This document shows, piece by piece, positions 59,171-62,308 of a DNA stretch of 63,935 bases. The notes below the pieces were generated by a model. The model saw nothing but the letters and a program-made list of their open reading frames with translations, was not told where the DNA came from and searched no databases. The stretch spans positions 1 through 63,935 of the forward strand of contig NZ_JAUFPN010000110.1 in NCBI RefSeq assembly GCF_030409335.1. Reading direction: 5' to 3'. The position numbers and the translations under genes were made by a program. Position 1 is the first letter of the stretch. Each line of letters starts with the position of its first letter. Source of the stretch: Paeniroseomonas aquatica. GTDB lineage: Bacteria; Pseudomonadota; Alphaproteobacteria; Acetobacterales; Acetobacteraceae.

Positions 59171-59200
59171 TTGCGGGCATATGTTATGTTATACTATAAC
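59171..59200 (+). promoter_or_regulatory. Predicted promoter of the DUF1826-COG0523 operon
   Basis: TTGCGG at 59171-59176 and TATAAC at 59195-59200 are 18 bp apart and match the -35 and -10 consensus at four and five positions. Transcription would begin at about 59207-59208, i.e. on the ATG, predicting a leaderless mRNA. The Zur-like palindrome covers the -10. Confidence 0.5.
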
Positions 59201-59202
59201 AT
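59186..59202. promoter_or_regulatory. Zur-box palindrome
   Basis: ATGTTATACTATAACAT is a perfect 17-bp inverted repeat around a central C. It equals the core of the known Zur operator (ATGTTATA-N-TATAACAT). It covers the predicted -10 and lies 5 bp before the DUF1826 start, so zinc-loaded Zur would block RNA polymerase. Both downstream genes belong to families tied to zinc starvation, which makes this assignment strong. Confidence 0.85.
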
Positions 59203-59207
59203 TCCCC

Positions 59208-59849
59208 ATGGCCCTGTTCTGCGAAGCCTATGCCCCCGCCCATAGCCTGGGCCAGGACGCCTGGAGCGTCTTCGGAACCGGCCCCGAAGCCCTGCTCCAG
59301 ATCCTGCGGCCGGAGGTCCACCTCGCCGTCTGGCACCGGTCGCTGCCGCGCTCCATCGCCCCGGGCTGTGCCCGGCTGGCCGCCGCCGCGCCCTTCCGGG
59401 CGACCGCCATCGGCCCGCCCGATGCGGTGGTGGAGGCCATCCTTGCCGACCTGCCCTGCGCCGCGCCGCTCGACCTGCTGCTGGACCTGCAGGATCTCGC
59501 CGCCTGCTTCGCCGCCATCATCGGGCGGGACACGGTGCAGCTGCGGCTCTCGGGCGTCGACAACGACAGCTGCCGGCGCTTCCACGCCGATGCGGTCGGG
59601 CTGCGGCTGCTCTGCACCTATCGCGGCGCCGGGACCGAATGGCTGCCGCTGGCCGGGGCCGAGGCGGCGCGCGACGCGGCCGCCGCGCCGCCACGCGCGA
59701 ACCGGCTGCCGGCCGGCTCGGTCGCCCTGCTGAAGGGCGAGGCGAAAGGGGCCGGCCGCGGCTGCGTCCACCGCTCCCCGCCGCGCGGCGCGCGCGACCC
59801 GGCGCGGCTGCTGCTCACCCTCGACGAACCCGGAAGGATCCCGCTGTGA
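59208..59849 (+). CDS. DUF1826 domain-containing protein, zinc-responsive
   Basis: A 213-aa cytosolic protein of the DUF1826 family. Features include [59 protein letters not shown] and [14 protein letters not shown]. Conserved Cys and His residues in the [11 protein letters not shown] segment could bind zinc or iron. The family is known from comparative genomics to be Zur-controlled and next to COG0523 GTPases, but its chemistry is not established. ATG 59208 is preferred to the in-frame ATG at 59181 because the latter would place the Zur box inside the coding region. GTGA overlap with the next gene. Confidence 0.88.
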
Positions 59850-61048
59850 GCCATCCGCCCGCACTGCCGGTCACCGTGCTCTCCGGCTTCCTCGGCGCCG
59901 GCAAGACCACGCTGCTGAACCACATCCTGGCCAACCGCGAGGGCCGCCGCGTCGCCGTCATCGTCAACGACATGTCCGAGGTGAACATCGATGCCGCGCT
60001 GGTCGCCCAGGGCGCCGCGCTGTCGCGCACCGAGGAGAAGCTGGTCGAGCTCTCGAACGGCTGCATCTGCTGCACCCTGCGCGACGACCTGGTGCAGGAG
60101 GTGACGCGGCTGGCCGGCGAGGGCCGGTTCGATGCGCTGCTGATCGAGAGCACCGGCATCAGCGAGCCGATGCCGATCGCCGCCACCTTCGACTTCCGCA
60201 GCGAGGAGGGCTTCCGCCTCGGCGACGTCGCCCGGATCGACACCATGGTGACGGTGGTCGATGCCGCCGGCTTCCTGCGCGACTATGCCAGCGCCGCCAG
60301 CCTGCACGCGCTCGGCCGGTCGACCGGCGAGGGCGACACGCGGCTGCTGGTCGAGCTGCTGATCGAGCAGGTCGAGTTCGCCGATGTCATCGTCATCAAC
60401 AAGGCGGACCTGGTCGACGCCGAGGCGCTGGGCCGGCTCGGCGCGATCCTCGCCAGCTTCAACCCCGGCGCCGCGATCATCGCCGGCATCGAAGGACGGG
60501 TGCCGCTCTCGGCGCTGCTGGACACCGGCCGCTTCGACTTCGCCCGGGCGCAGCAGGCGGCCGGCTGGGCCCGCGCGCTGGCCGGCGAGCACCTGCCGGA
60601 AAGCGAGGAATTCGGCATCGCCAGCTTCGTCTGGCGGGCGCGGCGGCCGCTGCACCCGGCGCGCTGGAAGCGGCTGATCGAGGGCGACCTCCCCGGCGTC
60701 ATCCGCGCCAAGGGATTCTTCTGGCTGGCGACGCGGATGCCCTGGGCCGGGTCCTGGCACCTCGCCGGCGCGGTCAGCCGGCACGAGGCGGCGGGGCAAT
60801 GGTTCGCCGCGGTCGACCCCGCGCGCTGGCCCGAGGATGCCGAATGGCAGGCGCAGGTGCGCGGGTTGTGGCAGGAACCGCATGGCGACCGGCGGCAGGA
60901 GGTCGTCGTCATCGGCCTCGGCATGGATGAGGCCGCGCTGCGCCGCGACCTCGAGGCCTGCCTGCTCACCGAGGCGGAGATGCGCGGCGGCCCGCGCGCC
61001 TGGGCCACGCTGCCGGATCCCTTCCCACCCTGGCGGCTCCAGGCGTAA
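59846..61048 (+). CDS. COG0523 (CobW-like) GTPase, putative zinc metallochaperone
   Basis: A 400-aa G3E-family GTPase. Walker A is [18 protein letters not shown] (residues ~11-28), the metal motif CxCC is C73, C75, C76 in [15 protein letters not shown], followed by [15 protein letters not shown], Walker-type [11 protein letters not shown] and the guanine-specificity NKAD in [13 protein letters not shown]. The C-terminal CobW_C domain has [15 protein letters not shown] and [14 protein letters not shown]0523 proteins use GTP to hand zinc to client enzymes under zinc limitation. Starts with GTG overlapping the DUF1826 stop and shares the Zur-type promoter. Confidence 0.93.
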
Positions 61049-61108: not shown

Positions 61109-62308
61109 ATGGCGACCCTCAATCGGCGGCAATTCGTCCAGGCCTCGGCAGCGGCGGGCGGTGCGCTGGCCACCGGGCTGGCGAGCCCGGCCCTGGCCCA
61201 GTCCGGGCCGATCAAGATCGGCTGGCTGCCGGCGCTGACCGGCGCCTCCTCCTCGACCGGCATCGGCATCGGCCGCGGCGTCGCCTTCGGCGTGGCCGAG
61301 CTCAACGCAGCCGGCGGCATCGGCGGCCGCAAGCTCGAGCTGATCATCCGCGACACCCAGAGCGACCCGACCAAGGCGGTGAACGCCGCCTCCGAGCTGA
61401 CCCGCAGCGAGAAGGTCGCGGTGCTGTATGGCCCCGGCAATTCCGGCGAGGCGCTGGCCTGCTCCGCAGTCATCGCCCGGTCGCGCACGCCGCAGCTCAA
61501 CCCCTGCTTCGTCGACGAGCTCATGGATGTCGAGAAATACCCGCTCGCCTTTCGTGCCGCCCCGTCGAACCAGCAGGTCGGCGCCGCGGCGAACCGCTAC
61601 GTGCTGGATATCCTGAAGATCAAGGAAGCGGCGGTCATCAGCGATACCACCGGCTATGGCACCGCCTCGGCGAAGGCCTTCGTGCCGATGCTGGCGGCGG
61701 CCGGCGGCACCGTGGTCTACCAGGGCGCCATCGACGCCAACCAGCCCGACCTGCTGCCGGACATGATGCGGATGCGCAGTGCCGGCGCCAGGGCGATCAT
61801 GCCCTGGAGCGTCAACCCCGGCCTGCTCGCCCGCATCCTCAACGTCCGCGCGGCGATGAACTGGGACGTGCCGGTGGTCGGCCAGACCACGCTGGGCTCG
61901 GGCCAGACCCGGGCGCTGCTCGACCGGCCGGAGAATTGGGAGAAGGTCTACCAGACCAATTTCCGCAGCTGCTGCTTCGGCGAGAACGGCGCCCTGCCGC
62001 AGCGGACCGCCGATTTCGTCGGCCGGCTGAAGGCGGCGAAGGTCGAGACCGGCGATACGCTGCTGTGGTGGGTGGCTGCGGGCTACGACGTGGCCGGGCT
62101 GGTCGCGGCGGCCATCAGGAGCGGCGCCGAAACCGCGGAGCAGATCGCGGCCCACTGGAATGCGGGCAAGCCGCATGCCGGCGTCTACGGCAACTACGTC
62201 TGGACGCCGCAGGACCACAATGGCTATCCCGACAATGACGTCGTGATGTCCCAGGCGAATTCCTTCCAGGACGGCGTGTTCAAGCTGGCGCCGGGTTACG
62301 CCGCCTGA
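61109..62308 (+). CDS. ABC-type LivJ/urea-like periplasmic substrate-binding protein
   Basis: A 399-aa type I periplasmic binding protein. A twin-arginine-like signal (NRRQFVQASAAAGGALATGL) precedes the mature start near SGPIKIGWLPALTGASSSTG. The receptor fold is visible in AFGVAELNAAGGIGGRKLEL, VLYGPGNSGEALACSAVIAR, AAVISDTTGYGTASAKAFVP and GYDVAGLVAAAIRSGAE. Typical ligands are branched-chain amino acids, amides or urea; no permease or ATPase is adjacent. GGGAGG lies 6 nt before the ATG. It follows the zinc operon by 60 bp. Confidence 0.92.
   Translation: MATLNRRQFVQASAAAGGALATGLASPALAQSGPIKIGWLPALTGASSSTGIGIGRGVAFGVAELNAAGGIGGRKLELIIRDTQSDPTKAVNAASELTRSEKVAVLYGPGNSGEALACSAVIARSRTPQLNPCFVDELMDVEKYPLAFRAAPSNQQVGAAANRYVLDILKIKEAAVISDTTGYGTASAKAFVPMLAAAGGTVVYQGAIDANQPDLLPDMMRMRSAGARAIMPWSVNPGLLARILNVRAAMNWDVPVVGQTTLGSGQTRALLDRPENWEKVYQTNFRSCCFGENGALPQRTADFVGRLKAAKVETGDTLLWWVAAGYDVAGLVAAAIRSGAETAEQIAAHWNAGKPHAGVYGNYVWTPQDHNGYPDNDVVMSQANSFQDGVFKLAPGYAA

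Follow-up and report, generated by a model that had tools for sequence, protein, structure and literature searches.

A predicted Zur-controlled, near-leaderless operon of Paeniroseomonas aquatica that joins a ZigA-type GTPase to a DUF1826 protein resembling Fe(II)/2-oxoglutarate oxygenases

Operons of this type are already known, and Zur control of a DUF1826 gene beside a COG0523 gene is published for Pseudomonas. The unit PA5536-PA5534 of Pseudomonas aeruginosa, composed of dksA2, zigA and a DUF1826 gene, is presented as Zur regulated in two papers (PMC11761036, PMC10393844). A table in a study of znuA gives values of 57.5 for PA5534 and 46.1 for PA5535, taken here as fold changes (PMC4542158), and a proteomics study reports enrichment of PA5534 in zinc-poor cells with p values of 0.42 by one method and 0.056 by the other (PMC11761036). 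Of two further papers, one reports that PA5534 rises together with zinc genes upon exposure to N-acetylcysteine (PMC9431628), and the other, from 2025, describes it as annotated as a metallochaperone but without a known function (PMC13083405). DUF1826 appears in a figure legend of Haas et al. 2009 on Zur-regulated COG0523 clusters (PMC2770081), and the Zur section of a Francisella paper lists a DUF1826 gene among genes selected by RNA-Seq (PMC5786701). Since 2009 or earlier, the domain has been depicted next to COG0523 genes under Zur control without being given a chemistry, and the residues named below make a putative enzyme testable. A search of open-licence papers found none that assigns DUF1826 a 2-oxoglutarate (2OG) chemistry, and the assignment proposed here from sequence and models appears to be new.

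The window, that is, the whole stretch of 63,935 nucleotides of Paeniroseomonas aquatica DNA that was analyzed, contains a locus that resembles the P. aeruginosa unit in joining DUF1826 and ZigA under predicted Zur regulation. In P. aeruginosa dksA2 is the gene that follows the Zur site and the DUF1826 gene comes last, whereas in Paeniroseomonas aquatica the DUF1826 gene comes first, dksA2 is absent, and the operator abuts the ATG. With moderate confidence, we read the locus as a Zur-repressed, near-leaderless operon encoding a ZigA-type GTPase and a DUF1826 protein that would act as an Fe(II)/2OG oxygenase. The fold is predicted, and we infer the catalysis, the metal, the use of 2OG, the RNA start and the binding of Zur. 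This reading builds on the operator, the gene order, the conserved residues and the sites shared with zinc-uptake-type genes, all of which are read directly from the DNA. The features of the locus are as follows.

59171 to 59176, forward strand: possible -35 element, TTGCGG, picked by eye, with three of six consensus bases
59186 to 59202, no strand assigned: Zur-type operator ATGTTATACTATAACAT, a perfect 17-bp palindrome, with zero expected in shuffles of the window
59195 to 59200, forward strand: possible -10 element, TATAAC, within the palindrome, picked by eye, with five of six consensus bases
59208 to 59849, forward strand: DUF1826 protein of 213 amino acids, predicted to be Fe(II)/2OG-oxygenase-like from PF08856, conserved residues and fold searches
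59571 to 59591, forward strand: codons for CRRFHAD, the predicted HxD metal motif, with C122 and H126 invariant and D128 present in at least 90% of 51 aligned members
59769 to 59780, forward strand: codons for HRSP (H188 to P191), with the predicted distal metal His, invariant in the 51 and aligned to the AlkB-like His
59805 to 59807, forward strand: codon for R200, the predicted 2OG-binding Arg, invariant in the 51 and aligned to the AlkB-like Arg
59846 to 61048, forward strand: COG0523 GTPase of the ZigA type, with a GTG start and a 4-bp GTGA overlap with the DUF1826 stop

The two-gene DUF1826-COG0523 unit proposed by the earlier sequence-only reading was confirmed by domain searches and by this 4-bp overlap. 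The first open reading frame matches PF08856 (DUF1826) with an E value of 5e-44 and 151 bits, versus a gathering score of 22 bits. The second carries CobW and CobW_C domains, with a P-loop motif from residue 14 and GCICC, a CxCC motif, from residue 72. It resembles the ZigA family NF038288 in these motifs and in passing the cut-off, but the margin is narrow (606 bits versus 600). Five more CobW-domain genes occur in this genome (G000), on C31, C94, C55, C88 and C10. A solute-binding protein gene at 61109 to 62308 (Peripla_BP_6, with a TAT-signal match) starts 60 bp past zigA; no terminator was found between the two, and it is possibly read through. A three-gene operon that includes it was rejected, as no relative of this protein occurs in the other fetched DUF1826 loci, of which only L064 to L066 are a fair test because most end soon after zigA.

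The DUF1826 homologues keep a CxxxHxD...H...R pattern in an alignment of 51 sequences, made up of the window protein and 50 proteins from 63 loci. Apart from the first Met, the invariant positions are R113, C122, H126, R133, G140, G177, H188, R189, S190, P191 and R200, and the conserved Cys, His and Asp residues expected from the sequence-only reading are indeed found (C122, H126 and, in at least 90% of sequences, D128). The alignment omits the window's own copy (L010), a duplicate of L021 (L030), proteins similar to kept ones (L023, L039, L041 and L047), a divergent one (L024), two partial ones (L026 and L028), one with an internal stop (L029) and three that have lost the triad (L027, L032 and L033). 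Because of these omitted rows, the invariance does not describe the whole family. Both His motifs are kept at 57 of the 63 loci, and the Arg lies 10 to 17 residues past the distal His at the 56 loci where the script located it. The six loci without both motifs comprise three partial or interrupted genes and three full-length copies without H/D/H (L027, L032 and L033), found in relatives. L033 adjoins an intact copy, L025, and L027 lies directly 5' of a zigA-like gene. An HxD...H arrangement followed some ten residues later by an Arg is a hallmark of Fe(II)/2OG oxygenases, among which an invariant Cys four residues before the HxD is unusual.

AlphaFold gave a model of the window protein with a pLDDT of 63.9 and a pTM of 0.68, three of the five models being poor, and a model of the L066 homologue with 69.7 and 0.74, respectively. 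Both were built from four sequences each and are weakest in the half expected to hold the active site. In Foldseek searches of the PDB, all 50 matches listed for the window model are members of the Fe(II)/2OG superfamily, with a best E value of 1.8e-3 and none at or below 1e-3. The L066 model reached an E value of 6.7e-6 (probability 1.00), with 54 matches at or below 1e-3. Superfamily members account for 48 of the 50 listed for it; the remaining matches are to the cupin lyase DddQ and to one chain of an RNA-editing complex. Membership of the superfamily was assigned in part by entry title. ACC oxidase, which is among the window-model matches, is a member that does not use 2OG. The matches lean heavily toward the superfamily, whose fold is a double-stranded beta-helix, but the TM-scores to the listed PDB entries are low for both models (0.14 to 0.43). 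A viral-structure library returned many 2OG and AlkB-type names, with three uncharacterized entries at the top (best TM-score, 0.56) and some replicases lower down; searches of viral contigs for further relatives found none.

Profile comparisons point to a weak link with the AlkB-like family PF13532. A profile of 55 DUF1826 sequences scored 26.5 against PF13532 (15 of 21 loci), versus a mean of 13.2 and a maximum of 21.3 in 100 column shuffles. The alignment spans 37 columns, reads LxxGDVxxLxGE...H...R and places the His and Arg in register with those of DUF1826. The scores against PF10014 (16.5; 16 of 16 loci) and PF13640 (12.1; 24 of 30 loci) fall within the shuffle range, and the PF13640 control is poor because one shuffle scored 129.9, an outlier without explanation. 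The loci left out of the profiles were partial, interrupted, similar to others or set aside by choice. A Pfam scan of the 51 aligned members listed 12 families, none of them a 2OG family, and a sequence-profile search of the PDB gave four weak matches, none to a 2OG enzyme. As these searches matched DUF1826 significantly to none of the known 2OG sequence families, it is not filed in them, which lowers the superfamily claim without settling it. On the basis of the conserved CxxxHxD...H...R pattern and the predicted fold, DUF1826 likely has an Fe(II)/2OG oxygenase fold, and its catalysis as an oxygenase is probable.

The same residues could instead serve a zinc-binding role, with DUF1826 as a noncatalytic partner of the GTPase (adaptor, buffer or client) in which C122, H126, D128 and H188 hold zinc on a cupin-like scaffold. 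The position of the invariant C122, four residues before the HxD, would suit a zinc ligand, and the link with ZigA, considered below, also favors such a partner. The invariant R200, 10 to 17 residues past the distal His, suits 2OG binding instead, and the fold matches are oxygenases, the 100 entries listed for the two models including a single cupin lyase and a single RNA-editing chain.

Among 147 genomes that were searched as relatives, 25 carry DUF1826, this one included, and the seven others of the genus all lack it. A sample of 398 genomes from across the phylum has it in 47, while 91 of the 398 hold a ZigA match with an E value of 1e-110 or better. If the two draws of 398 are the same genomes, as their shared labels suggest, 34 carry both proteins, 13 carry DUF1826 alone and 57 carry ZigA alone (Fisher p of 9e-15, with relatedness and shared ancestry ignored). 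A zigA-like gene is present at 44 of the 63 fetched DUF1826 loci, the window's included, and lies downstream, upstream or divergent relative to DUF1826, that is, in three gene orders. Forty of these neighbors have at least 48% identity and four are weak (28 to 32%); some lie more than 500 bp from DUF1826. The other 19 loci have no zigA-like gene; the neighbors were listed for 16 of them, and 10 hand-picked proteins from eight of these, a biased sample, were scanned. MerC-family membrane proteins adjoin DUF1826 at three of them (L048, L050 and L063), an ABC-3 permease is found at two (at one together with an SBP_bac_5 protein), GTP cyclohydrolase I and PRA-CH at one, and no family at two. The DUF1826-ZigA link is strong, without strict dependence. 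DUF1826 is not simply an adaptor of ZigA, because 13 of its 47 genomes have no ZigA match at 1e-110. For this reason the role of client or adaptor of the GTPase, which the sequence-only reading had put forward, was lowered from its place as the leading explanation, and the oxygenase-like motif and fold make the enzyme the better reading. The zinc-binding partner is unlikely overall.

Upstream of the DUF1826 gene, the perfect palindrome with a Zur-type pattern that had been noticed before lies at 59186 to 59202, where only 5 bases separate the end of ATGTTATACTATAACAT from the ATG at 59208. In the window, RTGTTATANTATAACAY with up to three mismatches has two overlapping matches, the site at 59186 with none and, at 59181, a shifted half-match of that site with three, versus a chance expectation of 0.00 in 100 shuffles of the window. 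The looser TGTTATANTATAACA with two mismatches gives as many matches as its control (three and three), so loose matching alone is uninformative and the weight rests on the exact core and its location. The possible -35 and -10 elements are separated by an 18-bp spacer, and by eye RNA would start at about 59207 to 59208. This geometry fits the earlier proposal of a promoter that sets the RNA start on the ATG; the boxes themselves are weak (three and five of six consensus bases), and a sigma-70 scan reported no promoter, its rule (9 of 12 bases, with the last T required) being unable to accept the TTGCGG/TATAAC pair.

The assembly (6.5 Mb, 98.65% complete) contains four exact copies of GTTATNNNATAAC and none of a reversed-pattern control. 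All four lie 1 to 6 bp 5' of a start codon.

Site 1: 5 bp before DUF1826-zigA
Site 2: 2 bp before a ZnuA-type binding protein gene (PF01297), AztC-like (236 bits; cut-off, 350)
Site 3: 1 bp before a 39-amino-acid open reading frame overlapping the gene of an AztA-like ATPase (203 bits; cut-off, 220)
Site 4: 6 bp before a TonB-dependent receptor gene

A Shine-Dalgarno match of at least three bases is absent from the 17 bases examined at each of the four starts. Four sites at 1 to 6 bp without a Shine-Dalgarno match indicate that near-leaderless Zur-type promoters mark a whole small regulon. The leaderless layout suggested for the DUF1826 operon is consistent with its geometry and start region and is not peculiar to it, since all four sites of the assembly share the arrangement. 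In G004, a genome of the same genus without DUF1826, three sites of the GTTATNNNATAAC type lie at -1, 1 and 6 bp, and the genes behind them look like orthologues of their G000 counterparts. The 39-amino-acid frame of site 3 (MSWPF...AMAA; L003, 1518 to 1637), which starts 1 bp past its box, has a conserved version in G004 (L148). In other genera, for which starts near sites were recorded at 49 loci (3 own, 30 taken as the best of many matches and 16 chosen), site-to-start distances vary and some sites have no evident zinc gene (for example, L082 and L088). Because of these variable distances, the statements on four of four and three of three sites are limited to G000 and G004.

The recurrence of the core 5' of zinc-uptake-type genes bears out the assignment of a Zur-type operator, and the scan places it near other genes of this type, namely the ZnuA/AztC-like and AztA-like genes (both below the Azt cut-offs) and the TonB receptor gene. 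Of the two Fur-family genes of the genome, one is best matched by Zur (NF008646) at 117 bits, below the cut-off of 167. This Zur-like gene (L075, 1436 to 3557; G000:C31) is divergent from a hisI-type gene, which is followed by a His-rich COG0523 gene; no matching Zur box was seen between the Zur-like and hisI-type genes. Taken by its anatomy, the Zur control and near-leaderless layout predicted for DUF1826-zigA are well supported.

A Zur-type box with up to two mismatches was found near DUF1826 at 28 of 63 loci, a count without a chance control, in a scan from 400 bp upstream to 40 bp inside the matched stretch. At many loci without a box, DUF1826 is not the first gene. Within the family, the gap from box to DUF1826 is 1 bp in L025, 6 bp in L005 and L007, 15 bp in L015 and 29 bp in L009. 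Where loci outside the class have a box, the gap is often longer. Gaps of 14 bp in L064, 10 bp in L065 and 19 bp in L066 (a GTG start, with a box of three mismatches) are longer in near relatives too, which suits an mRNA that is not leaderless. Here, translation would begin at ATG 59181, in frame with DUF1826, or RNA would begin farther upstream, and the palindrome would lie in coding sequence or in a leader; the poor predicted -35 and the empty promoter scan agree with this. Against it, homologues are alike from ATG 59208 onward (MALFCEAY in the window, MALTCETF in L007 and MPFLCEAF in L019, from starts picked by script), and three other promoters of the genome share the geometry. We regard an mRNA that is not leaderless as quite unlikely. 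A zinc hydrolase of the succinylglutamate desuccinylase type, metallated by ZigA, is very improbable, for although the Francisella paper places the domain in predicted succinylglutamate desuccinylases (PMC5786701), 51 of 51 aligned members match DUF1826 and the 12 listed Pfam families include neither a peptidase nor a desuccinylase.

In the oxygenase reading that we prefer, Zur would leave the operator covering the -10 region when zinc is short, and transcription would start at or beside the DUF1826 ATG, giving an mRNA almost without a leader. The ribosome would translate DUF1826 and then, through the stop-start overlap, the GTPase, and the ZigA-type GTPase would handle scarce zinc for its clients. 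DUF1826 would be a cytosolic Fe(II)/2OG-dependent oxygenase, an iron enzyme deployed once zinc fails, with H126, D128 and H188 holding the metal, R200 binding 2OG and C122 beside the metal motif in sequence. Its substrate, at a guess, would most likely be a zinc-binding ligand, or else a metabolite or protein tied to zinc supply, which it would oxidize. The predicted active site suggests that part of the response to zinc starvation depends on iron. A bolder version, possible but on balance doubtful, makes DUF1826 a new branch of Fe(II)/2OG oxygenases with a CxxxHxD signature, repressed by Zur and devoted to zinc starvation, that frees or reroutes zinc by oxidizing a zinc ligand or a protein that holds zinc, the released zinc being delivered by ZigA.

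Three known systems are close to parts of this reading. The AlkB-like family PF13532 is among the fold matches of DUF1826, and its distal His and subsequent Arg align with those of DUF1826, which differs in having no family-level Pfam match to it, an extra invariant Cys and no link seen to nucleic acids. For Corynebacterium glutamicum, one paper describes transcripts under Zur control that were mapped as leaderless by 5' RACE, with a motif overlapping the core promoter (PMC2823685). Those promoters resemble the layout predicted here but belong to a different phylum. The four similar promoter layouts found here suggest that a whole Zur regulon of leaderless or near-leaderless genes is possible in a proteobacterium. 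For Caulobacter, another paper describes CciO (PiuC/YbiX), a Fur-regulated 2OG-Fe(II) dioxygenase encoded beside a TonB transporter (PMC11870441). If the oxygenase reading is right, DUF1826 would be similar to it as a metal-starvation oxygenase of unknown substrate that is tied to metal supply. The resemblance would be one of function, with iron, Fur and a TonB receptor partner on one side, and zinc, Zur and a GTPase partner on the other. In the bolder version, DUF1826 would do for zinc what the CciO/PiuC enzymes under Fur control do for iron.
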